A stretch of DNA of 47,338 nucleotides from Chloroflexota bacterium (GTDB lineage Bacteria; Chloroflexota; Dehalococcoidia; Lucifugimonadales; Lucifugimonadaceae): contig PBKW01000007.1 of the NCBI GenBank assembly GCA_002721615.1, positions 35,567-82,904 on the forward strand, in the 5' to 3' direction. Position 1 is the first letter of the stretch, and every line of letters begins with the position of its first letter. Made by a program: the position numbers and the translations under genes. The notes below the pieces were generated by a model, which worked only from the letters and a program-made list of their open reading frames with translations, was not told the origin of the DNA and searched no databases. This document shows, piece by piece, positions 14,829-39,852 of this stretch.

Positions 14829-16004
14829 CTAAATATGAGCAGGTGTTCCGTCTTCTAAGAAATATTCTTCTCTATGCCAGTAATCATTTGATATATAATC
14901 TTTTAGAAATTCCATATTTAAGTCTATTCCCCAACCTGCTCCTTGAGGTAAAGAAAAATAACCTTCTTTTGTTTCAGGAGTGTTGATAACTATATTTTTT
15001 TCTATATCAGTTGGTCCTCTGTGTTCCAATATCACGAAGTTTGGCGTAGAAAATGCGAAGTGAATATTTACCATGGTTGCAACAGGACCCATTGGATTAT
15101 GAGGTGCAATAGATAAATCATTTCCTTCTGCATTGGCAGCAATTTTCTTTAATTCGAGCATTCCTCCAACCAGACATATATCTGGGTTAAAAATATCTAC
15201 AGCTTTAAGACTGATTAATTGACCTGTCTGCCATTTTGTGAATGTGCATTCTCCTGTTGCTAATGGAACGTGGAATTTTTTTCTCAAATCTGCCATAGCT
15301 TGATAATTTTCCATTCTTATAGGGTCTTCTATAAATAAAGGCTTATACGGTCTTACAGTTTCCTCTATTTCTAATGTTTTTGATGGTTCAAAAATTGCAG
15401 CATGAGTATCTAATGCTATATCAAAAGAGTAGCCAAATTTTTCTCTAACAATTTTCATTCTTTCTTCTGCAGCTGCCAATGCATCATTCCATAATAGTGA
15501 TCTGAAGTTAGATGGTAAGGGAGAAGTTTTTATAGCAGTCAAGCCTCTTTCTATAGCTTTTTGAATTGCTTCACATAGTTGTTCAGGAGAATCACCACCA
15601 GCACCATCATATCCTCTAACACGATCTCTGAATTGACCTCCTAGTAATTCATAAACAGGGGAATTTACTGATTTTCCTAGAATGTCCCATAGTGTCATCT
15701 CAATTGCACTTAATGCTGCCATTCCTGAAGATCCTGGAGGAATTCTAGCTCCTTGATACATTCTAGCCCACAGATATTCTATTCTTCTAGGATCTTGACC
15801 AATTAATTGTTCTTCAAAATATTTTACCCAGTGTAAAGTTGCTGAATCTGGTCCCACACAGAATGCTTCTCCAATTCCATAGATGTCATTATCAGTAAAT
15901 GTTTTCACAAGGATGGTATTTCTTACACCAGTTGAAGAATGGAAACCTTTAACTGTTCCCCGAGCTCCTTTTAAAACATAACATTCTATATGAGTAATTT
16001 TCAT
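14829..16004 (-). CDS. Enolase-superfamily dehydratase, GalD-like (copy A)
   Basis: Mandelate racemase/muconate lactonizing-type enzyme whose motifs follow D-galactonate dehydratase. The capping domain (about 1-125) precedes a beta/alpha-barrel with AIKTSP (the strand-2 Lys), metal ligands Asp199, Glu226 and Glu252, and the His-Asp dyad His302/Asp275. Strand 3 reads LDTH, so His201 is placed as the extra base used by acid-sugar dehydratases. Expected reaction: syn- or anti-dehydration of an aldonate to a 2-keto-3-deoxy acid. I place the start at the ATG at 16004, with AAGGAG six bases upstream, and not at an in-frame upstream codon that would overlap copy B. It is 13 bases downstream of copy B. 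Sugar specificity is unresolved. Confidence 0.88.
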   Translation of the reverse strand: MKITHIECYVLKGARGTVKGFHSSTGVRNTILVKTFTDNDIYGIGEAFCVGPDSATLHWVKYFEEQLIGQDPRRIEYLWARMYQGARIPPGSSGMAALSAIEMTLWDILGKSVNSPVYELLGGQFRDRVRGYDGAGGDSPEQLCEAIQKAIERGLTAIKTSPLPSNFRSLLWNDALAAAEERMKIVREKFGYSFDIALDTHAAIFEPSKTLEIEETVRPYKPLFIEDPIRMENYQAMADLRKKFHVPLATGECTFTKWQTGQLISLKAVDIFNPDICLVGGMLELKKIAANAEGNDLSIAPHNPMGPVATMVNIHFAFSTPNFVILEHRGPTDIEKNIVINTPETKEGYFSLPQGAGWGIDLNMEFLKDYISNDYWHREEYFLEDGTPAHI

Positions 16005-16017
16005 TTTTGCTCCTTTT

Positions 16018-17223
16018 TTACATAAATGCTGGTGCACCTTGGCTATCAGTCGGAAAACCTCTGTGCCAAGTACCCGGTGGTGTTGCTTTTACTCTATCAA
16101 AATCTATTTCCATTCCTAATCCAGGTTCTTTAGGTAAATCAAAATAGCCATTTTTAGGAACCCAAACGTTTTTTGCATACATAGCACTAAGTTGTTTTTG
16201 GTCACTGTGGAATTCAAGTATTTTGAAATTAGGAATATTAGCAGCCAAATGTACAGAAGCTGCAGTTGATATCAAGCCAATTGGATTATGTGGTGCTACA
16301 GTCACATAATGCATTTCTGCAATAGATGACATTTTTTTCATTTCTAAAATACCTCCACAAATCAGAACATCTGGCTGGATAATATCTACTGCTCCTAGTT
16401 CCATTAATTGCGCAAAAGTTTGAATGCTATACAAACATTCTCCTGTAGCTAATGGGGCATTTAGTTCTCCTCTAAGTCTAGCTGTAGTAGTTAAATTATG
16501 GGGAGTAACAGGTTCTTCATAGAAGAGTAATCTATATTGAGATAATTCTCTTACTAATTGATTAGCTTTTACTGCATCCCTAAAGACTGCATGTATATCT
16601 ATAGCAATTTCTGGCCCATTCCCTACAGCATCCCTTACTGCAGCAAGTCTTTCAGATGATAGCCTTATTACATCATTCCACGGTAAGTTCTGCCAAACTG
16701 GGACATAATATTGTTTACTAGCCCTATAATCTGAAGGGCTAAAGTGTTTATTCCCTTCTACTCCAGCAGGAAAGGGGCTCATTTTAAATGCAGTATACCC
16801 TTCTTCCATTAGCTTTAATGCATTTTCTTTTAATTCTTCTGGAGTATCCCCTCCAAGGCCATGGTATGCTCGTATTTTATCTCTAACATTTCCTCCTAAT
16901 AGAGTATGAACTGGGAGTCCTTTAGCCTTTCCTAATATATCCCAAAGAGCTATTTCTATACCTGATAATGCTGCGTAAGAAATGTTGCCTAATACAAACC
17001 TCATAGTATTTTTAGCTCTTCTCATAAGCCATTCTATTCTTGTCGGATCTTGCCCTATGAACCATTCTTTCATGTCTTCTAATGCTCCGATTACTCCATT
17101 GTCAGGACCTACATTGTAAGGTGCTCCAACTCCTGAAATTCCCTCATCTGTTAAGACTCTTAAGAAAGTATAATTTCTATTTCCTGGATTAGTTATATAA
17201 AATTCTATGTCAGTAATTTTCAT
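16018..17223 (-). CDS. Enolase-superfamily dehydratase, GalD-like (copy B)
   Basis: 401-aa paralogue of copy A with the same catalytic layout: FKMSP on strand 2, Asp209 and His211 in IAIDIHAV, Glu236 (FYEEP), Glu262 (ATGEC), Asp285 (IQPDV) and His312 (APHNP). It carries an extra loop of about 25 residues between strands 2 and 3 (near 153-180, rich in Ser, Tyr and Trp) that copy A has only in short form, so the active-site mouth differs. The spacing on both sides (13 and 20 bases) shows it is mid-operon. Copies A and B share the GEC metal-ligand context and the APHNP[MI]G ending and look like an old duplication that has since diverged. Confidence 0.88.
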   Translation of the reverse strand: MKITDIEFYITNPGNRNYTFLRVLTDEGISGVGAPYNVGPDNGVIGALEDMKEWFIGQDPTRIEWLMRRAKNTMRFVLGNISYAALSGIEIALWDILGKAKGLPVHTLLGGNVRDKIRAYHGLGGDTPEELKENALKLMEEGYTAFKMSPFPAGVEGNKHFSPSDYRASKQYYVPVWQNLPWNDVIRLSSERLAAVRDAVGNGPEIAIDIHAVFRDAVKANQLVRELSQYRLLFYEEPVTPHNLTTTARLRGELNAPLATGECLYSIQTFAQLMELGAVDIIQPDVLICGGILEMKKMSSIAEMHYVTVAPHNPIGLISTAASVHLAANIPNFKILEFHSDQKQLSAMYAKNVWVPKNGYFDLPKEPGLGMEIDFDRVKATPPGTWHRGFPTDSQGAPAFM

Positions 17224-17243
17224 TTTTATCTCTCAAAAAATTT

Positions 17244-18362
17244 TTATTTAAGTATTCGGTTATTTAATTCTTTTTCATTGAACTCAATTCCCAGACCCGG
17301 CCTATCTTCAATAACTAAGCAACTATTTTTTATTTCTAAGGGGTTTTTAAGAATATCATTTCTCCAAGGAATAACTCCTGGAGACATAAATTCTTGAATA
17401 AGAGCGTTAGGAGAAGACGCCATTACATGAGCTGCAGCCATAATTCCAACCGGACCTTTTGTGTTATGAGGTGCTATTTTAACTTGATATGCTTCTGCAA
17501 TTGAACATACCTTTTTCATTTCAGTAATTCCACCTATATATACGATATCGGGTTGAGCGATATCTACACATTCATTTTCAAAAAATCTGTTAAATTGTTT
17601 CTTTGATGTCAATCTTTCTGAGCCTGCTATTGGTACTGATGTTGATTTTCGAATATGTGAATATGCCTTTATATCTTCAGGTCCTGTAGGCTCTTCTAGG
17701 AATAAAAGATTATATGGTTCAATTGTTTTGGCTACTTTTATCGCTGATGAAGGGTCAAAAATTCCGTGAGGATCATCCATTAATATAATTTCTTCCCCAA
17801 TTTCCTTTCTTAAAATTTTGTATTTTTCTTCTATTTCATCAAGTTGTTTTTTAGAAACATCTGGTCCTAGATTTTCATGCATTGTTATTCCAGACTTTAA
17901 AGCATTAAAACCATGAGACAAAGTACTTTTTGCACTTTTGATCATGCTATTAATATCTGAACAAGAAAAATGAGAATAAATAGGCACTTCTGCATTTCTT
18001 GGTCCTCCAAGCAATGCACATACAGGAGAATCCAAAATTTTTCCTTTTATATCCCACAAAGCTTGATCAATTCCACTGATAGCACTTGTAAACATTATTC
18101 CGCCAGTTCTATATCCAGTTCTAGCTCCTGTATATAAAATCTTGTAAATTTCTTCAGTATTCCATATATCCTTACCGATAATGAATTCTTTAAGGTCATT
18201 AATCATTTCTGCTACTACAGTTTCTTTGTGGCTATAAGTAGCTTCCCCGTAACCAGTGATTCCTTGATCAGTATGAATATTTACTATAGTCCATTTACGG
18301 CCACAGTCAGATGGAACTAGTTTAACTGTAATGTCTATGATTCGTGCTTTTGTTTTATCCAT
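17244..18362 (-). CDS. Enolase-superfamily dehydratase, GalD-like (copy C)
   Basis: 372-aa family member. The capping-domain to barrel junction SGIDQALWDIKGK is very close to authentic D-galactonate dehydratases. Active-site residues: Lys156 (ALKSG), Asp196/Asp197 and His199 in MDDPHG (one residue longer than the LDxH of copies A and B), Glu223 (FLEEP), Glu249 (GSERL, resembling the GER of GalD), Asp272 (QPDI) and His299 (APHNTKGP). I start it at the ATG at 18362, one base after the dppC-like stop codon; a TTG three codons upstream would overlap that gene by eight bases. It is coupled directly to the transporter genes, so uptake and dehydration are probably co-regulated. Confidence 0.88.
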   Translation of the reverse strand: MDKTKARIIDITVKLVPSDCGRKWTIVNIHTDQGITGYGEATYSHKETVVAEMINDLKEFIIGKDIWNTEEIYKILYTGARTGYRTGGIMFTSAISGIDQALWDIKGKILDSPVCALLGGPRNAEVPIYSHFSCSDINSMIKSAKSTLSHGFNALKSGITMHENLGPDVSKKQLDEIEEKYKILRKEIGEEIILMDDPHGIFDPSSAIKVAKTIEPYNLLFLEEPTGPEDIKAYSHIRKSTSVPIAGSERLTSKKQFNRFFENECVDIAQPDIVYIGGITEMKKVCSIAEAYQVKIAPHNTKGPVGIMAAAHVMASSPNALIQEFMSPGVIPWRNDILKNPLEIKNSCLVIEDRPGLGIEFNEKELNNRILK

Positions 18363-18363
18363 A

Positions 18364-19284
18364 TTAGTCAAGTTGAGTTAATCGAGGATCTAATCTATCT
18401 CTTAACCAATCTCCAAAGAAACTTAGTGAAATAATCAATAGCATTATAGATACTCCGGGAACTACTGTAGACCACCAAGCAGAGTCAACATAAGCTCTAC
18501 CTTCAGAAATCATTAATCCCCATGCAGGAGTAGGAGACGGGATTCCTGCTCCAAGAAAGCTTAGAGAAGCTTCAGAAAGAATTAGTGAACCTACCCTAAG
18601 ACTAGCAATTACTACAACTGTATTTATTACACCAGGGAAAATATGAGTCATGATAATCCTAAAATTTGAAGCACCAGCAATTCGAGAATATAGAACATAA
18701 TCTCTTTCCCTTAAAGTTAGTACCTCGGCACGAACATTTCGTACAGTGGCACTCCATGCCACCAGAGCCAGCAGAATTACAACAAGGGCGAAACTAGAAC
18801 CAAATATGATAACTGCTACCATTGCGATGAGTAGGAATGGTAGAGCATACCACACATCTAGGAAACGAAGTATGATTTCATCAACGTGTCCTCCAAAATA
18901 TCCTGCAATTAATGCTAAAGTAGTACCTATAGTTATTCCTGTAACAAGTGCTGTTCCTCCTGTGATTAAAGATAATCTAGCTCCATGAATAGTCCTGCTT
19001 AGAACATCTCTACCCATATGATCTCCCCCTAAAAGATATTTTGGAGCTTTAGGGTTTTCTGCATACCATTGTTTATCCCATAAATATCCAGGTGCATTTC
19101 TAGATCTTAAGTTTTGTTTTATTGGATCATGGGGGGAGATTAAATCTGCAAAAATCCCAGTGAAAAACAAAAGAATGATTAAAACAACAGAAATTATCGG
19201 GTATCGTCTTAGAAGCCTCCAAATTTCTGAAAGATAGAATAAAGGAAGTTTCAAAATTTTTAATATTGAAGAAATATTTTTCAT
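18364..19284 (-). CDS. ABC transporter permease, DppC/OppC type
   Basis: Inner-membrane permease of the peptide/nickel/opine uptake family, 306 aa. One N-terminal span (about 28-48) is followed by a periplasmic loop with the family motif LGGDHMGRDVLSRTIHGARLSL and then five further spans. The EAA-type coupling loop ERDYVLYSRIAGASNFRIIMTHIFPGV is near 195-225, and LSFLGAGIPSPTPAWG is the usual DppC ending. It pairs with the DppB-type permease four bases upstream. ATP-binding subunits (DppD/DppF) are absent from the window, so they must be encoded elsewhere or shared. Solutes of this family include oligopeptides, oligosaccharides and glutathione, so substrate is open. Confidence 0.94.
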   Translation of the reverse strand: MKNISSILKILKLPLFYLSEIWRLLRRYPIISVVLIILLFFTGIFADLISPHDPIKQNLRSRNAPGYLWDKQWYAENPKAPKYLLGGDHMGRDVLSRTIHGARLSLITGGTALVTGITIGTTLALIAGYFGGHVDEIILRFLDVWYALPFLLIAMVAVIIFGSSFALVVILLALVAWSATVRNVRAEVLTLRERDYVLYSRIAGASNFRIIMTHIFPGVINTVVVIASLRVGSLILSEASLSFLGAGIPSPTPAWGLMISEGRAYVDSAWWSTVVPGVSIMLLIISLSFFGDWLRDRLDPRLTQLD

Positions 19285-27987: not shown

Positions 27988-28084
27988 ATTTCTAATTAAT
28001 TCTTTAAATTCGTATTTAAATTTTTGTTGCAATAATGATGATTATAAGCTACAGTTATATAAATTAGTAGTATATAGTCGAAAT

Positions 28085-28273
28085 ATGTTTTTATTTGATC
28101 AGTGTCCAAAATGTAGAGGTACTGTCACATTAATATCAGAATTAGATGGAAATGAACTTCAATGTATCCATTGTGGATTTTCTGTATCAATTCAACATTC
28201 AGATGGTATGTCTGGAAATGACTTACAGAAAGTTCTAAAAAACAGTTCTGATGATATCAAGAAGAATGGTTAA
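28085..28273 (+). CDS. Zinc-ribbon small protein
   Basis: 62-aa protein with two CxxC knuckles, CPKC (8-11) and CIHC (27-30), forming a zinc ribbon, followed by a polar tail. No ribosome site is seen; TATATA about eight bases upstream could give a leaderless mRNA. The gene converges on the B12-binding regulator with a ten-base gap. Such small ribbons often belong to transcription or RNA-associated proteins, but no role is assigned here. Confidence 0.72.
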   Translation: MFLFDQCPKCRGTVTLISELDGNELQCIHCGFSVSIQHSDGMSGNDLQKVLKNSSDDIKKNG

Positions 28274-28282
28274 ACATCTTCT

Positions 28283-29242
28283 CTAGATCAATGGTTTAAA
28301 TAAATCATCTATTTCTCTTTCTAAAGATATTGATATTTTCTGTAACGCAGAAATACTTATGTTTCTTTTACCATTTTCTACAGCACTTAGAAAAGTTCTA
28401 TCTAGTTTAGATTTTGTTGCTAGTTCTTGTTGACTTAAATTTTTATTTGATCTTAAGTATTGAATATTTGTACCAATGATTTTCATTAATTTTTTAGTAC
28501 TTACTTGTTTTGCATTATTATTTGATAAGTTTTTTACATAGATGAGTGTATGTGAGGGATCTTTATCCAAAAAGTCTGGACAATATTTTGTTTCAATTCC
28601 TAAATGTTTTGATATTAAATTTTTTGAATTAAAGTTTTTATCTATATTATATTTTTTTGTTATTCCTGAACCGCTCCAAATAACATTTATTTTTTGTGGT
28701 GTTGTTTTAATTTCTTTTGTTATTTCTTTACATTTATTAAATGAAGAATCTAATGTTCCTGAAAGAACAAGAAGTTCAGGAGTTCTCAATTTAATAAACT
28801 TTAAAAGATCTTTTGAAGGAGTATCAGTACCAAGAAAATCTACATTCCAATTATTAATTAATAATACATCAGCTATGATTCGGGCTCCAATAATATGAGC
28901 ATCTCCTTCTACAGTAGAAACTATTGCAAGAGGAGCATTAGAAGGAGTGTTTACTAAATTTGATCTTAGATAAGTAAGTATATTTAATGTTATTTGAGAT
29001 GCTCGATGTTCATGAGAAATGGTGATTTCATTATTGTGCCACATATCTCCGATTTTTTTCATAGATTCCGCAATTAATTTTTTGTAGATATTTAAAATGT
29101 CCAATCCATCAGTTAAAGCGTAGTTTATAGATGCTAAAGCTTTATTTTCTTGTCCATTTAATAAGGCATCAAAATATCTATCTCTAATTTTGTTAAAATA
29201 AAATTGATTGCTTTTAATGTTATTTGTAATTTTTCTGGACAT
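28283..29242 (-). CDS. CarH-like B12-binding regulator with C-terminal XRE HTH
   Basis: 319 aa. Residues about 15-95 form the four-helix cap of B12-binding domains and contain Trp68-His69 and Glu78-His79, the full W-x9-EH signature of CarH/LitR photoreceptors, including the His that ligates cobalt after photolysis in CarH. Residues about 103-235 form the Rossmann-like cobalamin domain with D-x-H-x2-G at 114-119 (lower axial His116). Residues about 253-312 are a typical Cro/C1-type helix-turn-helix (LSQQELATKSKLDRTFLSAVENGKR). Known CarH proteins have an N-terminal MerR-type HTH, so here both the DNA-binding fold and its position differ. Predicted to bind adenosylcobalamin and control transcription, possibly by light. 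TATAAT on the minus strand (29253-29258) is ten bases before the ATG. Targets unknown; no carotenoid or photolyase genes are nearby. Confidence 0.85.
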   Translation of the reverse strand: MSRKITNNIKSNQFYFNKIRDRYFDALLNGQENKALASINYALTDGLDILNIYKKLIAESMKKIGDMWHNNEITISHEHRASQITLNILTYLRSNLVNTPSNAPLAIVSTVEGDAHIIGARIIADVLLINNWNVDFLGTDTPSKDLLKFIKLRTPELLVLSGTLDSSFNKCKEITKEIKTTPQKINVIWSGSGITKKYNIDKNFNSKNLISKHLGIETKYCPDFLDKDPSHTLIYVKNLSNNNAKQVSTKKLMKIIGTNIQYLRSNKNLSQQELATKSKLDRTFLSAVENGKRNISISALQKISISLEREIDDLFKPLI

Positions 29243-29286
29243 TTTAATGTTGATTATACACTACATTTTTCTAGAATGAGTTTTTA

Positions 29287-29808
29287 TTAAGTAGTATTCT
29301 TAGGGGTATAATTTGAGCAAGCTTCACATATTGTTTGAGGAATTAAGCCTAGTTTAATTAAAATATTGAAAACTTTACATCCTGCACAGAAACCTAGAAA
29401 AGATTCTAAGAAAGTAAAAATTATTAATATACTTATAAGTATCATTGAAACTTCTTTTAAAGAAAATATAAAAAGAATTAATGCTAATCCAGAAAATATA
29501 AGTCCTATAAGTTGAGCAAATCTTTTGGGTGGTCCAGCAACTAACTTTTCCTTAATATTTATATTAGGAACTATAATCTTTGTAACTAGTAATGCTAGGG
29601 GACTTATTTTAGGGCCACTACTAACTCTTGCTAAAAATCCGTAGGTTAATAGAGAAAGTATTATTATAGGATATAAGTTAGGAAGATCTAGTAACATTAA
29701 TATTAATGAAAATATACATATAAAAAATACACCTAAAGCCACTAACCTAGCAGAAACTTCGTTTACAGGATTAGGAAAACTGAAGAAATCAGTTAAATAT
29801 TTTTTCAT
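29287..29808 (-). CDS. DUF4395 integral membrane protein
   Basis: 173-aa membrane protein with about four hydrophobic segments. It matches DUF4395 by NPVNEVSARLVALG at the start, GPKISPLALL, PPKRFAQLIG in the middle and FLESFLGFCAGCKVFNILIKLGLIP at the end, where the FCxGC pair is conserved. Function unknown; in other genomes these proteins often accompany thiol-redox or sulfur-transfer genes, which would suit the Cys pair, but none is adjacent. GGAG precedes the ATG. It is 44 bases upstream of the B12 regulator in the same direction. Confidence 0.85.
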   Translation of the reverse strand: MKKYLTDFFSFPNPVNEVSARLVALGVFFICIFSLILMLLDLPNLYPIIILSLLTYGFLARVSSGPKISPLALLVTKIIVPNINIKEKLVAGPPKRFAQLIGLIFSGLALILFIFSLKEVSMILISILIIFTFLESFLGFCAGCKVFNILIKLGLIPQTICEACSNYTPKNTT

Positions 29809-31802: not shown

Positions 31803-33032
31803 TTATACTGATGGTTTTAGGAGAAATTTTTGTAGGGATTCTTCATCAATATCTATTCCTAATCCAGGTGCTTCTGTGACAGGAAATAATCCGTTTTTTG
31901 GTTCGAAAGGTTTAGATAGATATAAAGATTTCATTTTATTGCCTTGTTCTGAATGTTCCATTATCAGGAAATTAGGTGTCGCTATTGAAAATTGTACTGT
32001 AGATGCTACTGATAATATTCCTCCTCCTCCTACATGTGGGGCAACCGGAATATTATAAAGGTGTGCAATAGAAGCAATTTGTTTTGCGCCTGTCAACCCA
32101 GTTCTAGCTATATCTGGCATAGAAATATCATATGCTCTTTTTTCAAATATTTCTCTCATTTCAAATTTTGTTCTAGTCCATTCTCCATTGGCTATTGGCA
32201 TATCAAGTGATCTAGCAATTTCTATTTGTCCTGGTATGTCATTAGGATCAGATGGAGATTCTAGCCAATATACATTAAAGTTCTCTAGTTGTTTACCTAG
32301 TTTTATTGCTTCGTGGGTATTGAACATCATATGAACATCCAGCATAAGATCTATATTGTTTCCAACGGTTTTTCTCACTTCAGATACAATATCAATAGTT
32401 CCTTCAATAGTTTCTCTAAGATGAAGTTTCAAGGCCTTATATCCTTTTGATATTGACCACTCTGCCATTTCAGCAACTTTTTTAGGGTCTCTTCCACCAA
32501 TTCCATTATATATTTTGACAGAATTTCTATGCCTTCCTCCCATTAGTTTATGAGTTGGTAATTTAAAAGTTTTCCCTATGGCATCCCAAATTGCAATGTC
32601 TACTCCAGAAATTGCATCTATATAAAATCCAGTGTAATGTCCTCTTTCTCTCATAGCAGTAAAGTTGTTATGCCAAATTGCTTCTACATCTAAAATATCT
32701 GCATTAATAATTAATGGATATACAAGGTCATTAATTATTGTTGCTGTTGTATTTGGGGATACAGGAGATTGAGATTCGCCCCATCCAACAATCCCATCTG
32801 AGGTTTCTACTCTCACTACAGTGGTTTCATGAAATTTTGAATATATAGAAGTATGATGAGTTTCGTCTATAAAATGGTCTCCTAGATCTCTAATAGGAGG
32901 GCGTTCAGAACCTCCTCCGAAGCTTTGATCAGATACATCTTTTCTTCCCTTATCAAACTGTTCAAGTATAGATGAAACATCGTCATAATTTTGAATTCTA
33001 ATTGGATAAGCTTTTACATCAACTATTTTCAT
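31803..33032 (-). CDS. Enolase-superfamily enzyme, mandelate racemase-like (copy D)
   Basis: 409-aa member. The capping domain has an insertion near residues 20-70 (rich in Ser, Asp and His) that the other copies lack. Barrel residues: Lys202-Leu-His204 (KLH), Asp232 and His234 (LDVH), Glu258 (WLESP), Glu284 (NGEW), Asp307 (MPDI) and His333 (APHVGGGG). The KxH on strand 2 together with the His-Asp dyad suits an acid-sugar dehydratase or racemase. It heads a minus-strand group with an EamA transporter and DUF368. The -10 palindrome just upstream is shared with the divergent HPP gene, and no ribosome site is present, so it is likely leaderless. Confidence 0.87.
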   Translation of the reverse strand: MKIVDVKAYPIRIQNYDDVSSILEQFDKGRKDVSDQSFGGGSERPPIRDLGDHFIDETHHTSIYSKFHETTVVRVETSDGIVGWGESQSPVSPNTTATIINDLVYPLIINADILDVEAIWHNNFTAMRERGHYTGFYIDAISGVDIAIWDAIGKTFKLPTHKLMGGRHRNSVKIYNGIGGRDPKKVAEMAEWSISKGYKALKLHLRETIEGTIDIVSEVRKTVGNNIDLMLDVHMMFNTHEAIKLGKQLENFNVYWLESPSDPNDIPGQIEIARSLDMPIANGEWTRTKFEMREIFEKRAYDISMPDIARTGLTGAKQIASIAHLYNIPVAPHVGGGGILSVASTVQFSIATPNFLIMEHSEQGNKMKSLYLSKPFEPKNGLFPVTEAPGLGIDIDEESLQKFLLKPSV

Positions 33033-34444: not shown

Positions 34445-35623
34445 ATGAAATCAGATTTAGAGATCACCAAAATAGAAATTGTAGAATTTAAGCATCCAGT
34501 AAAGAATTTAGGTAAGGATTATAATTCTTTTAATCTTGTTTATACCCCTAATAATGATTTAGAAATGACAGGCTTGATCTTAAGGATTCACACTTCCGAA
34601 GGCATTATAGGAGAATATGAAGGTTTAACTGGCCCTGCTTTAGCTGAAGTGAAAATGATTGCTGACTATTTATTAGGAAAAAATCCTCTAGAAAGAGAAC
34701 AAATATACAACGATACTAAGCGGGGATTACGACATGGAGCAATGCTCGGAACTAGTATTGTTGATATTTGTTTGTGGGACATAGCAGGAAAGTTATATGA
34801 AGAACCTATTTGGAGATTATTAGGAGGTCAATCTAGAAAACTTCCTTGTTATGCTTCTACTTTACATGGTGATGAAAATGGAGGTTTAACTACTCCTGAT
34901 GATTTTATTGAATTTGCCGAACAATGTTTTTCCATGGGTTATCCGGCTTTCAAGATTCATGGTTGGGGTTTAGCAAGAAATGATATATCTAGAGAAATAT
35001 CCAATGTTTTGAAAATGGGAGAGAAATTTAAAGGAAGAATGGATTTGATGATAGATCCAGCTTGTGAAATAAAAAACTTCATGGATGCTTTGGCTTTAGG
35101 AAAAGCATGTGATGAGGCGGAATTTTTCTGGTGGGAGGACCCTTATCAAGATGGGGGAGTATCTCAATTTTCACATAGAAAATTGAGACAAATGGTTAAA
35201 ACTCCTCTTCTACAAACTGAACATATTAGGATGCTAGAACAGCATGTAGATTTTATAGTAGCTGATGGTACTGATTTAGTAAGAGCTGGAGCACATGAGG
35301 ATGGTGGAATTACTGGAGTAATGAAAATTGCTCATGCGGCAGAAGGTTTTGGTTTAGATGTGGAATTACATGGTCCTGGTCCTGCACATAGACATTTAAT
35401 GACTTCGATTAGGAATACGAATTATTTTGAAATGGGATTAGTTCATCCCAATGTGGATTCCTATAAATCACCTTGTTATCTTGATTATTCTGATAACTTA
35501 GACTCTATAGATAAAAATGGTAATGTAGAAGCTCCTGATAAACCGGGATTAGGTGTAACTTTGGATTGGGATTGGATTAATAAATTTGAAATAGATAGAG
35601 GAATAATTTCTGAAAAATTATAA
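34445..35623 (+). CDS. Enolase-superfamily enzyme (copy E)
   Basis: 392-aa member of a subgroup shared with copy G. Both have the block GDExxGGL[ST]TP after the capping domain, a KIH/KLH strand 2 followed by Trp, and an HGxG C-terminal motif in place of the usual APHNP. Residues here: Lys170-Ile-His172, Asp204 (IDPAC, no His on strand 3), Glu231 (WWEDP), Glu259 (QTEHI), Asp286 (HEDGG) and His309 (ELHGPG). Likely a dehydratase or racemase of a hydroxy-acid with a different substrate from copies A-D. GAGGA precedes the ATG. It is followed at nine bases by copy F, so the two enzymes are co-transcribed. Confidence 0.87.
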   Translation: MKSDLEITKIEIVEFKHPVKNLGKDYNSFNLVYTPNNDLEMTGLILRIHTSEGIIGEYEGLTGPALAEVKMIADYLLGKNPLEREQIYNDTKRGLRHGAMLGTSIVDICLWDIAGKLYEEPIWRLLGGQSRKLPCYASTLHGDENGGLTTPDDFIEFAEQCFSMGYPAFKIHGWGLARNDISREISNVLKMGEKFKGRMDLMIDPACEIKNFMDALALGKACDEAEFFWWEDPYQDGGVSQFSHRKLRQMVKTPLLQTEHIRMLEQHVDFIVADGTDLVRAGAHEDGGITGVMKIAHAAEGFGLDVELHGPGPAHRHLMTSIRNTNYFEMGLVHPNVDSYKSPCYLDYSDNLDSIDKNGNVEAPDKPGLGVTLDWDWINKFEIDRGIISEKL

Positions 35624-35632
35624 GGAGAAATC

Positions 35633-36880
35633 ATGAAGATTACTGATCTGAAGTGTGCAATTATAGGTAATACTCCGGTGGTTAGAATAACTACAGATGA
35701 AGGTATTTCAGGTTATGGTCAAGCAGAATGGTCTAAACCATATCTTAAACCATATGTCTTATTTTATAAGCCATTGATTTTAGGGGAAGATCCTACAAAC
35801 GTTGAAAGGGTAATGAGTAAAATTAGACGACTAGGATCATTTAAACCTTGGGGTGCCGCAGTAAGTGCAATAGAAGTAGCATTATGGGATATTGCAGGAA
35901 AAGCTGCAGATCTTCCAGTTTATAAACTACTGGGAGGAAAAGTTCGAGATAGAGTTCTTGTGTATAACGGAGGAATTAGATTTCCAATGGAAGGTGATTC
36001 AAGTCCTGAAAATTTTGCTAAAAATATCTTAAAAATGAAAAATTTAAAAGAAGGTTTTTCTATAATAAAACAAGGAATTTCTTTACATGGTCAGATGGCA
36101 GATAATTTCGATAAATATTTTTATGGAGATATATCTTGGGATGAACGAAACAGCATAATTTTTGAAAATGATTCTAAGGATCAATGGGCTCTTAGCCAAT
36201 ATCTTCCTTTTGGAGGTCAAATTACTGAGAAAGGGATGAATTACACTTTAGATTGTATTATAGCAATGAAAGAAGTTTTAGGAGATGAAGTTGGACTTGC
36301 ACTAGATTGTGGACCAGGCATTGTTCCTCATGATGCCTTAAAATTAGCTCAATCTGTTGAAGATTTAAATATAATGTGGATGGAAGATATGATAACTGGG
36401 GATTACACTCCTTATGTATTAGCTGATTTATATAGGGATGTGACAATCAATACTTCTACACCAATTCATACTGGAGAACAAATCTATTTACGCCAAAACT
36501 TTAAAGATCTTATTGATAAAAGGGCTGTAAATATTATTGGCCCAGATCCTTTAGATGTAGGAGGTTTAGCTGAAACAAAATGGATTGCGGAATATGCTGA
36601 CTTGAATGGAATTATGATTGCACCACATGGAACAATAGACGGATTAATTGGATTAGCAGCTCATGTTCATTTAGCAGCGACACTTCCAAGGAATTATATT
36701 GCTTTGGAATATCCTGTACCATGCCATAAATGGTGGTACGACATTATAGAGGGTCTACCAGATCCTATAGTAAAAGATAGCTTTATAGATGTTTGGGACT
36801 CTCCTGGTCTTGGGATTAAATTTCGAGAAGATGAAGCATCAAGATATCTTGATGAAGAAGATAAAGATTTTTTTAACTAA
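35633..36880 (+). CDS. Enolase-superfamily enzyme with enlarged barrel loop (copy F)
   Basis: 415 aa, the longest copy. Lys146 lies in IIKQG. There is then an insertion, so that the first metal ligand Asp225 (LDCGPG) is about 80 residues later, against some 40 in copy A. Glu251 (WMEDM), Glu282 (HTGEQ), Asp305 (GPDPL) and His332 (APHGTIDG) complete the set. Strand 3 lacks the His seen in copies A-D and G. The insert (about 150-205) is aromatic and charged (FDKYFYGDISWDERN) and would reshape the active-site entrance. AAGGAG precedes the ATG. Second gene of the E-F pair; converges on the alpha/beta hydrolase after five bases. Confidence 0.87.
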   Translation: MKITDLKCAIIGNTPVVRITTDEGISGYGQAEWSKPYLKPYVLFYKPLILGEDPTNVERVMSKIRRLGSFKPWGAAVSAIEVALWDIAGKAADLPVYKLLGGKVRDRVLVYNGGIRFPMEGDSSPENFAKNILKMKNLKEGFSIIKQGISLHGQMADNFDKYFYGDISWDERNSIIFENDSKDQWALSQYLPFGGQITEKGMNYTLDCIIAMKEVLGDEVGLALDCGPGIVPHDALKLAQSVEDLNIMWMEDMITGDYTPYVLADLYRDVTINTSTPIHTGEQIYLRQNFKDLIDKRAVNIIGPDPLDVGGLAETKWIAEYADLNGIMIAPHGTIDGLIGLAAHVHLAATLPRNYIALEYPVPCHKWWYDIIEGLPDPIVKDSFIDVWDSPGLGIKFREDEASRYLDEEDKDFFN

Positions 36881-38700: not shown

Positions 38701-39852
38701 TTAATCTATTAATGAATTATTTATGTAATCAAAATTAATATCCCAACCTAAGCCATCTCCTAGAGGCATACTGATGAAACCTTCTTTATCCATGGGATCC
38801 ATTATATTATTTAGATATGCAGGAGGTTCTTCATGATCTATAAAAGGATGCAATAATCCTCTTTCATATAATTCTCCTGGTATAGCCATAGATAATAATG
38901 CATGCAAATTTCCTGCTCCTCCTCCATGTACTTCTAATGCCATATTGAATGATTCAGCTAGATGGATGATCTTCATTAATGGAGTTAATCCTCCTACATC
39001 TCCTACACCTCCTCTCAAAATATCACATGCATTGTTAGTAATCCATTCGGCTCTAGTTGCTAATTTTCCTTGCATTGTTTCTGGACCTAAAATTGGTAAA
39101 TCTAATTGATCACTTAACCATATATAAGACGACATGCTAGATTCATCCATAGGTTCTTCCATCCAATGAAAATTGAGTTTTTCTAATTCTTTACCAATCC
39201 ATAGGGCATCTAACCTTGAATAGTTATGATGAGGATCAAGCATTAGTGGAATATCATCGCCTACAGCTTCTCTAACTGCAGCACAAGCTTTTATATCCAT
39301 TTTGGGATCTGGAGCCCATTTTATTGGAGGATACCAAGTATGTAATTTGAAAGCTTGATAACCACGTTCTTTAATACACCATTCAGCAAATTTTGCATAT
39401 TCTTCTGGTGTGCTCAAACCTCCATTCATCTCGTCTCCACACATTGTACTAGCATAAGCTGGAACTTTGTCTCTATATAAACCCAGTATTCGATTAATAG
39501 GTTGTTTTAAAACCTTTCCTATTGTATCCCATAGTGCTAAGTCAACATTTGATAACACTTTATCATTTAGTGATTCTTGTCCAATTCTTTGCATATGGTT
39601 TAATTTTTGCCATAGTCTTTCTCTGAAAAAAGGATCTTCTCCTACCAAAATTGGAGCGATAACATTTTCAGTTATTTCTTTTCCTACACCAAAAGAATAA
39701 CCACTTATCCCTTCATCAGTGTGAATAGAAAATAGTGTTGTTTTGATTTTATGTTCTTTTAAGTCTGGGTCAGGATGAGTATGTCCTTCATCATCACTAA
39801 CAGTTTTTGTAGAATAGAAAAAAGTTTTACTTGTTACTTCTGTAATTTTCAT
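38701..39852 (-). CDS. Enolase-superfamily enzyme (copy G)
   Basis: 383-aa member grouped with copy E by the shared GDExxGGLSTP block and the HGGG terminus. Residues: Lys169-Leu-His171 followed by TWYPP, Asp206 and His208 (LDPHHN, the His absent from copy E), Glu232 (HWMEEP), Glu258 (GPETM), Asp285 (GGVGDVGG) and His309 (EVHGGG). The N-terminus has a His/Asp-rich stretch (DDEGHTHPDPD) in the capping domain that could contribute to substrate selection. It is 17 bases downstream of a UxuA-like gene, so two unrelated dehydratase folds are in one operon. Substrate likely an aldonate or uronate derivative, by inference. Confidence 0.87.
   Translation of the reverse strand: MKITEVTSKTFFYSTKTVSDDEGHTHPDPDLKEHKIKTTLFSIHTDEGISGYSFGVGKEITENVIAPILVGEDPFFRERLWQKLNHMQRIGQESLNDKVLSNVDLALWDTIGKVLKQPINRILGLYRDKVPAYASTMCGDEMNGGLSTPEEYAKFAEWCIKERGYQAFKLHTWYPPIKWAPDPKMDIKACAAVREAVGDDIPLMLDPHHNYSRLDALWIGKELEKLNFHWMEEPMDESSMSSYIWLSDQLDLPILGPETMQGKLATRAEWITNNACDILRGGVGDVGGLTPLMKIIHLAESFNMALEVHGGGAGNLHALLSMAIPGELYERGLLHPFIDHEEPPAYLNNIMDPMDKEGFISMPLGDGLGWDINFDYINNSLID

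Follow-up and report, generated by a model that had tools for sequence, protein, structure and literature searches.

The locus described here raises the question of whether a protein that joins cobalamin-binding domains to a C-terminal DNA-binding domain is a light-responsive regulator dependent on adenosylcobalamin (AdoCbl), a sensor of some other signal, or a corrinoid protein of methyl transfer. Its gene lies in a window of 47,338 nucleotides (the whole stretch of DNA analysed) from a 1.46 Mb assembly, the nearest named relatives of which belong to the SAR202 cluster of Chloroflexota. Residue conservation, a phylogenetic tree, gene neighbourhoods and a shared predicted operator together lend strong support, at the level of sequence, to a CarH-like AdoCbl/light regulator with an XRE domain at the other end of the chain.

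The regulator and its signature residues

Pfam models identify a B12-binding_2 cap (E-value 3.8e-14), a B12-binding domain (1.3e-12) and an HTH_3 domain (2.1e-10), all above their curated cut-offs, the last of these bearing out the Cro/C1-type (XRE) helix-turn-helix that the preliminary description had placed at the C-terminus (Table 1). Translation of the open reading frame, which is on the minus strand (a point left out of the preliminary description), likewise recovers W68-H69, E78-H79 (W-x9-EH) and D114-x-H116-x2-G119 where they had first been read. Both motifs had been taken to separate light sensors from methyl carriers; W-x9-EH does discriminate, but D/ExHx2G is a general B12-binding motif, found as GDVH in MetH, with which it is shared (PMC8156234). 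The protein combines W-x9-EH in the cap with the E/DxHx2G lower-ligand motif (PMC8156234; here D114-A-H116-x2-G119), and also carries the whole GxxW/EH/GxxH/GxxxP signature (G65-x2-W68, E78-H79, G113-x2-H116 and G138-x3-P142) with which SignatureFinder predicted four experimentally confirmed photoreceptors (PMC11796333). A Pfam scan of the 319 residues revealed no globin-like biliverdin domain, the Rossmann domain running on into the helix-turn-helix, and an AlphaFold model built on a 20-row alignment has a mean pLDDT of 88.

Table 1. Features of the regulator locus, with positions counted along the window.
Feature	Position	Strand	Basis or score
Regulator gene, 319 aa; B12-binding cap, Rossmann B12-binding domain and C-terminal XRE HTH	28283..29242	-	ORF and Pfam
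B12-binding_2 four-helix cap, residues 20-92; G65-x2-W68-H69 and E78-H79	28967..29185	-	Pfam, conservation
Rossmann B12-binding domain, residues 106-195; D114-x-H116-x2-G119 and G138-x3-P142	28658..28927	-	Pfam, conservation
HTH_3/XRE DNA-binding domain, residues 260-314; recognition helix LDRTFLS	28301..28465	-	Pfam
Zinc-ribbon protein gene, 62 aa, CPKC...CIHC; unlisted ORF, convergent with regulator	28085..28273	+	conserved neighbour
Predicted operator O1, AATGTTGATTATACACTACATT	29246..29267	.	score 22.6; reached by 0/200 window shuffles
Predicted operator O2, AATGATGATTATAAGCTACAGT, upstream of zinc-ribbon gene	28034..28055	.	score 14.2
Predicted operator O3, TTAGTAGTATATAGTCGAAATA, 30 bp from O2	28064..28085	.	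score 13.2

A search for homologues with B12-binding_2, B12-binding and a C-terminal XRE domain in the same order, suggested at the outset as a check, returned about 60, mostly from SAR202/Dehalococcoidia: 17 of 60 related genomes carry them, and some 50 loci were found in a species-level genome collection, whose contigs were searched with a 6-member alignment. Outside Dehalococcoidia, members occur in Myxococcota ('Deltaproteobacteria'), Armatimonadota, Ca. Fraserbacteria and one Planctomycetota MAG, with the proviso that some of these genomes are bins whose contigs may be misassigned. The complete genome of the cultured Ca. Lucifugimonas marina JH1073 has two copies (L098 and L101). Rather than a repressor independently assembled in one marine bacterium, as had been proposed, the protein thus represents a family spread across several phyla.

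Across 62 aligned members the Trp is kept in 61, the Glu in 62, the His of EH in 58 (four relatives lack it), the lower-ligand His in 62 and the Pro of GxxxP (Pro142) in 61, so that the signature in the window protein is not due to chance. The His next to the Trp, equivalent to His132 of CarH, is retained in 45 and missing in 17, and some paralogues (L095, L105) are without part of the signature.

Placement among B12-binding proteins

In a maximum-likelihood tree of B12 domains (66 rows) the XRE members, the MerR-type CarH proteins of other Chloroflexota, Thermus CarH and photocobilin-type proteins lie on one side, and SAR202 MetH with small corrinoid proteins on the other, the split having support of 100/100. 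With a profile built from the B12 domains of the family, CarH-type and photocobilin-type proteins reach 75-154 bits versus 51-70 bits for MetH and corrinoid proteins, and the MetH and corrinoid proteins of the same bacterial group are without W-x9-EH. Profile searches placing the cap with methyltransferase activation domains had been named in advance as evidence against a photoreceptor; the tree and the family profile show the opposite, grouping it with CarH and the photocobilins. Assignment as a corrinoid methyl carrier (MtbC/MtaC/MetH) is ruled out by W-x9-EH and the tree placement, and as a photocobilin by the lack of a biliverdin-binding globin-like domain in the Pfam scan. The CarH/LitR family proper is set aside as well, the protein having XRE/HTH_3 at its C-terminus instead of MerR at its N-terminus.

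It is worth noting that for the single window sequence the methylamine-type corrinoid models of NCBIfam reach 65 bits, slightly above CarH at 57 bits, which is a warning against trusting one profile score; the CarH model NF052513 has a cut-off of 400 bits, far above the 57.4 bits of the window regulator. A fold search gave Z scores of 25 for photocobilin, 21.6 for CtMerR, 20.7 for MetH and 19.7 for CarH, and fold alone (Z 25 to 20) does not tell photoreceptors and MetH apart.

Other Chloroflexota commonly have canonical MerR-CarH; in 60 SAR202-side genomes none was found, every match to the CarH model falling at a B12-domain/XRE locus. None of these matches reaches the N-terminal MerR region, and all but one start at 72 or later, the sole exception being frame-broken and beginning at model position 50. 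Since CarH-model matches in SAR202 occur only at XRE-form loci, and none of them with MerR, the XRE form seems to serve there in place of CarH.

A shared predicted operator

Conserved operators upstream of orthologues had been proposed as a further check, and a shared palindrome does precede most members. In an unbiased count of short gapped palindromes, TGTT-N10-AACA occurred in 10 of 54 non-redundant upstream regions, the most frequent palindrome in 20 shuffled sets reaching no more than 5. Iteration yielded a matrix with the consensus WWTGTnKAnTATAnTMnACAWW, given in palindromic form as the 22-bp predicted operator WWTGTnGAnTATAnTCnACAWW. The matrix was seeded from the same upstream regions on which it was later tested, and held-out tests remain significant: with leave-one-out training, 37/54 upstream regions carry a site at p<=0.01 and 44/54 at p<=0.05. 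At a fixed threshold there are 82 sites in 775 kb around the regulators versus 1 in 300 kb of control regions. Tandem sites are frequent, their centre spacing peaking at 28-33 bp (24 of 48 pairs), and such pairs would suit a dimer of dimers.

When its genus is withheld from matrix training, O1 in the window still reaches 21.5 (p < 1/2000). Only 3 bp separate O1 from the regulator start codon, and it includes a minus-strand TATAAT; no -35 box was found at the regulator promoter. The predicted operators O2 and O3 stand in tandem directly before the zinc-ribbon gene, and a pair of sites scoring at least 13 at 28-33 bp spacing arose in 0/200 window shuffles. At 14 of 62 loci a zinc-ribbon homologue adjoins the regulator, in every case with an operator-like site (score at least 11) within 400 bp upstream of it. 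A role for this protein in light-induced feedback, or an accessory role, is our guess. The DUF4395 membrane protein gene (29287-29808), is on the same strand as the regulator and 44 bp upstream of it, and no operator was found before it.

The operator has the register of the site of C.Esp1396I (GAC-TATA-GTC and, outside it, TG), a match that played no part in finding the motif. Operator matches are weak or lacking in the deltaproteobacterial members (L079, L082-L085, L087), which possibly have a different regulon or site. These loci also have other neighbours, namely a DnaJ-domain protein and a CmoB-like methyltransferase.

Gene neighbourhoods and predicted regulon

Photolyase is present in 9/18 regulator-bearing genomes versus 5/42 without the regulator (Fisher p=0.0027), at seven loci in six genomes only 25-4639 bp from it. 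Of 54 non-redundant regulators, 25 have genes of light, UV or carotenoid function within 6 kb, versus 1 of 20 random 15-kb regions of the same group (p=0.0005); for a strict core set of these genes the counts are 12/54 versus 0/20 (p=0.016). Neighbours confirmed by Pfam comprise photolyase, pyrimidine-dimer glycosylase, phytoene synthase, an amine-oxidase/CrtI-like protein and GTP cyclohydrolase I (FolE), as well as fasciclin, DUF1365, DUF2867-SDR, cobT and cobU. Heliorhodopsin genes also adjoin some orthologues; across genomes, co-occurrence of rhodopsin with the regulator was not significant (4/18 vs 4/42, p=0.18). Each of the two Ca. Lucifugimonas copies stands divergently to a fasciclin-FolE-SRPBCC-photolyase-DUF2867-heliorhodopsin cluster, whose heliorhodopsins are those discussed in the cultivation paper (PMC10444878).

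Several loci have features of their own. The cobalamin nucleotide-loop genes cobT/cobU adjoin the regulator in L066, L071, L073 and L106, which suggests a link between the switch and AdoCbl supply. In same-genus relatives, a pyrimidine-dimer DNA glycosylase gene (L031:8601-8996) sits beside the regulator, the zinc-ribbon gene and photolyase in a compact UV-repair island. A DICT sensory-domain protein (L043:10414-11535), a possible second light or signalling protein, overlaps the start of a photolyase gene at the same locus as a regulator. The window itself holds many enolase-superfamily paralogues (14829-18371, 31803-33032, 34445-36880 and 38701-39852), a set that corresponds to the SAR202 paralogue expansion known from the literature.

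Beyond the regulators' own promoters, predicted operators precede genes for photolyase (L031, L032), fasciclin (L056-L058, L092, L094, L101), MMPL (L100, L110), SRPBCC (L045), FolE (L104) and SDR (L078). In the window's own genome, covered by a pattern search and inspected regions, no convincing operator was found at the photolyase gene, which is on another contig, and no bacterial rhodopsin or heliorhodopsin is present; of the predicted targets in that genome, only the regulator gene itself and the zinc-ribbon gene are near-certain. Three other exact matches to the operator pattern fall inside called ORFs and were taken as chance. One of the three, a strong operator-like palindrome scoring 19.3 (G000:C14:4045, L163:4045), lies inside a 175-aa ORF without a Pfam match, and may be intergenic if that ORF was wrongly called.

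Proposed mechanism and alternative explanations

On this evidence the window protein is probably a repressor that depends on AdoCbl, is released by light and takes the place of CarH in SAR202. In CarH and CtMerR, AdoCbl drives assembly of a tetramer in the dark, and light breaks both the Co-C bond and the oligomer (PMC8156234, PMC11796333). By the same scheme, AdoCbl would be held in the dark between the cap (W68, E78, H79) and the Rossmann domain, with H116 as the lower ligand of the cobalt, and the oligomer would be kept together by B12 domains packed head to tail (W68, P142). Its XRE dimers would bind promoter-overlapping palindromes, in many cases paired at a spacing of 28-33 bp, and so repress in the dark its own gene and the zinc-ribbon gene and, in relatives, genes for photolyase, fasciclin, FolE, SRPBCC and MMPL proteins. 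Light would then break the Co-C bond, the oligomer would fall apart and release the DNA, and genes for light and UV protection would be switched on; H69 may capture the cobalt, as His132 does in CarH. AdoCbl binding, photolysis and the change of oligomer are what we infer for this protein, as is its polarity as a dark repressor, the latter because O1 overlaps the TATAAT; a point against a fixed polarity is that C-proteins can also activate. The host genome encodes a PduO-type corrinoid adenosyltransferase, and the host can therefore make AdoCbl from a corrinoid; CobA/BtuR was not found in it.

The chief alternative is that the protein senses the AdoCbl pool and not light, and controls B12 salvage or B12-linked genes. 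This reading draws on the presence of cobT/cobU near the regulator in four Dehalococcoidia loci and in 0/20 control regions, and we regard it as unlikely: far more loci pair the regulator with photolyase, heliorhodopsin, pyrimidine-dimer glycosylase, SRPBCC/SDR, fasciclin or carotenoid genes, predicted operators stand before such genes whereas no separate operator was found upstream of cob genes, and W-x9-EH is a photoreceptor motif. Cob genes in the same operon would, moreover, be compatible with regulation by light.

Less probable again is a cobalamin regulator that senses redox, methyl transfer, another corrinoid or biliverdin and keeps W-x9-EH only for folding. The NCBIfam scores, with corrinoid methyl-carrier models slightly above CarH, and the incomplete signatures of paralogues L095 and L105 point this way; yet the MetH and corrinoid proteins of the same group have no W-x9-EH and are separated from the regulators in the tree with 100/100 support, no gene for a corrinoid methyltransferase partner is found repeatedly next to the regulator, and the globin-like bilin domain is absent from the 319 residues. 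That CarA and class II LitR show regulators' B12 domains able to lose cobalamin binding (PMC8156234, PMC9758184) gives some footing to a degenerate or B12-independent regulator with a constitutive XRE domain, a reading rendered very improbable by retention of the lower-ligand His (62/62), the Glu (62/62) and the Trp (61/62), in contrast to CarA, which is without Wx9EH (PMC8156234).

Relation to known systems

Thermus thermophilus CarH (class I LitR; PDB 5C8A-F) shares with the light-released repressor proposed here the cap and Rossmann domains, W-x9-EH, the His beside the Trp and the lower-ligand His, and its gene lies beside photolyase (phr) and phytoene synthase, like those of the regulator's relatives. 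The two differ in DNA-binding domain (MerR at the N-terminus in CarH, XRE at the C-terminus here), are 23% identical over the B12 domain, and part company in operator, that of CarH consisting of 11-bp direct repeats and that predicted here of a 22-bp palindrome that frequently occurs as a tandem pair at 28-33 bp spacing. The best PDB sequence match (1.5e-18) is CtMerR of Chloracidobacterium thermophilum (PDB 8JBS/8JBT), a dark tetramer that monomerises in light (PMC11796333); it has the same light signature but an N-terminal MerR-type domain, and is functional with Arg in place of the His beside the Trp, at the CarH His132 position (PMC11796333). Photocobilins (SasPcob 8J2W, AbDPcob 8J2Y) are closest in fold (Z 25) and have the same signature, but they carry a globin-like domain that binds biliverdin, and some of them also an enzyme domain, where the regulator has an XRE helix-turn-helix.

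Among the nearest solved relatives of the XRE domain is the restriction-modification controller C.Esp1396I, whose base-reading residues R35/T36 of the recognition helix correspond to R282/T283 and whose R46 corresponds to R293, a position occupied by Gln in most B12-domain/XRE members. Unlike the regulator, C.Esp1396I is without a sensor domain and controls restriction-modification genes. The tandem sites recall those of C.Csp231I, in which an 18-bp gap separates two 15-bp sites.

Light-responsive B12 domains fused to a helix-turn-helix at either the N- or the C-terminus were already predicted in the 2024 SignatureFinder paper (PMC11796333), so this class of architecture had been anticipated. 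The open-licence literature yielded no account of a family of XRE-type B12 photoreceptors, of its operator or regulon, of a replacement of CarH in SAR202 or of the zinc-ribbon partner.

Implications for SAR202

A wider reading may be advanced tentatively, as a possibility held with rather less than even confidence: that B12 photoreceptors of a distinct lineage, in which a CarH-type sensor was joined to an XRE domain like that of restriction controllers, replaced CarH throughout SAR202, binding paired palindromes about three helical turns apart and working with a conserved, light-induced zinc-ribbon protein as a feedback partner, and that they govern the SAR202 response to light and UV through photolyase-heliorhodopsin operons, including that of the light-inhibited isolates. 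The family would, on sequence grounds, make the B12 light sensor an exchangeable module, here mounted on an unrelated DNA-binding scaffold, and for optogenetics it offers a compact one-protein candidate green-light switch with a defined predicted operator.

SAR202 bacteria are ubiquitous in the ocean, and the first cultured strains stop growing in light, an effect that was called unexplained and for which heliorhodopsin was proposed as the sensor (PMC10444878); cobalamin and photoreceptor proteins go unmentioned in the text of that paper. Each of the two photolyase-heliorhodopsin loci in Ca. Lucifugimonas marina now has next to it, in divergent orientation, a dedicated second candidate for the sensor together with a predicted operator, so that the question of light becomes directly testable in a cultured strain and the light sensitivity of cultured SAR202 gains a testable lead.
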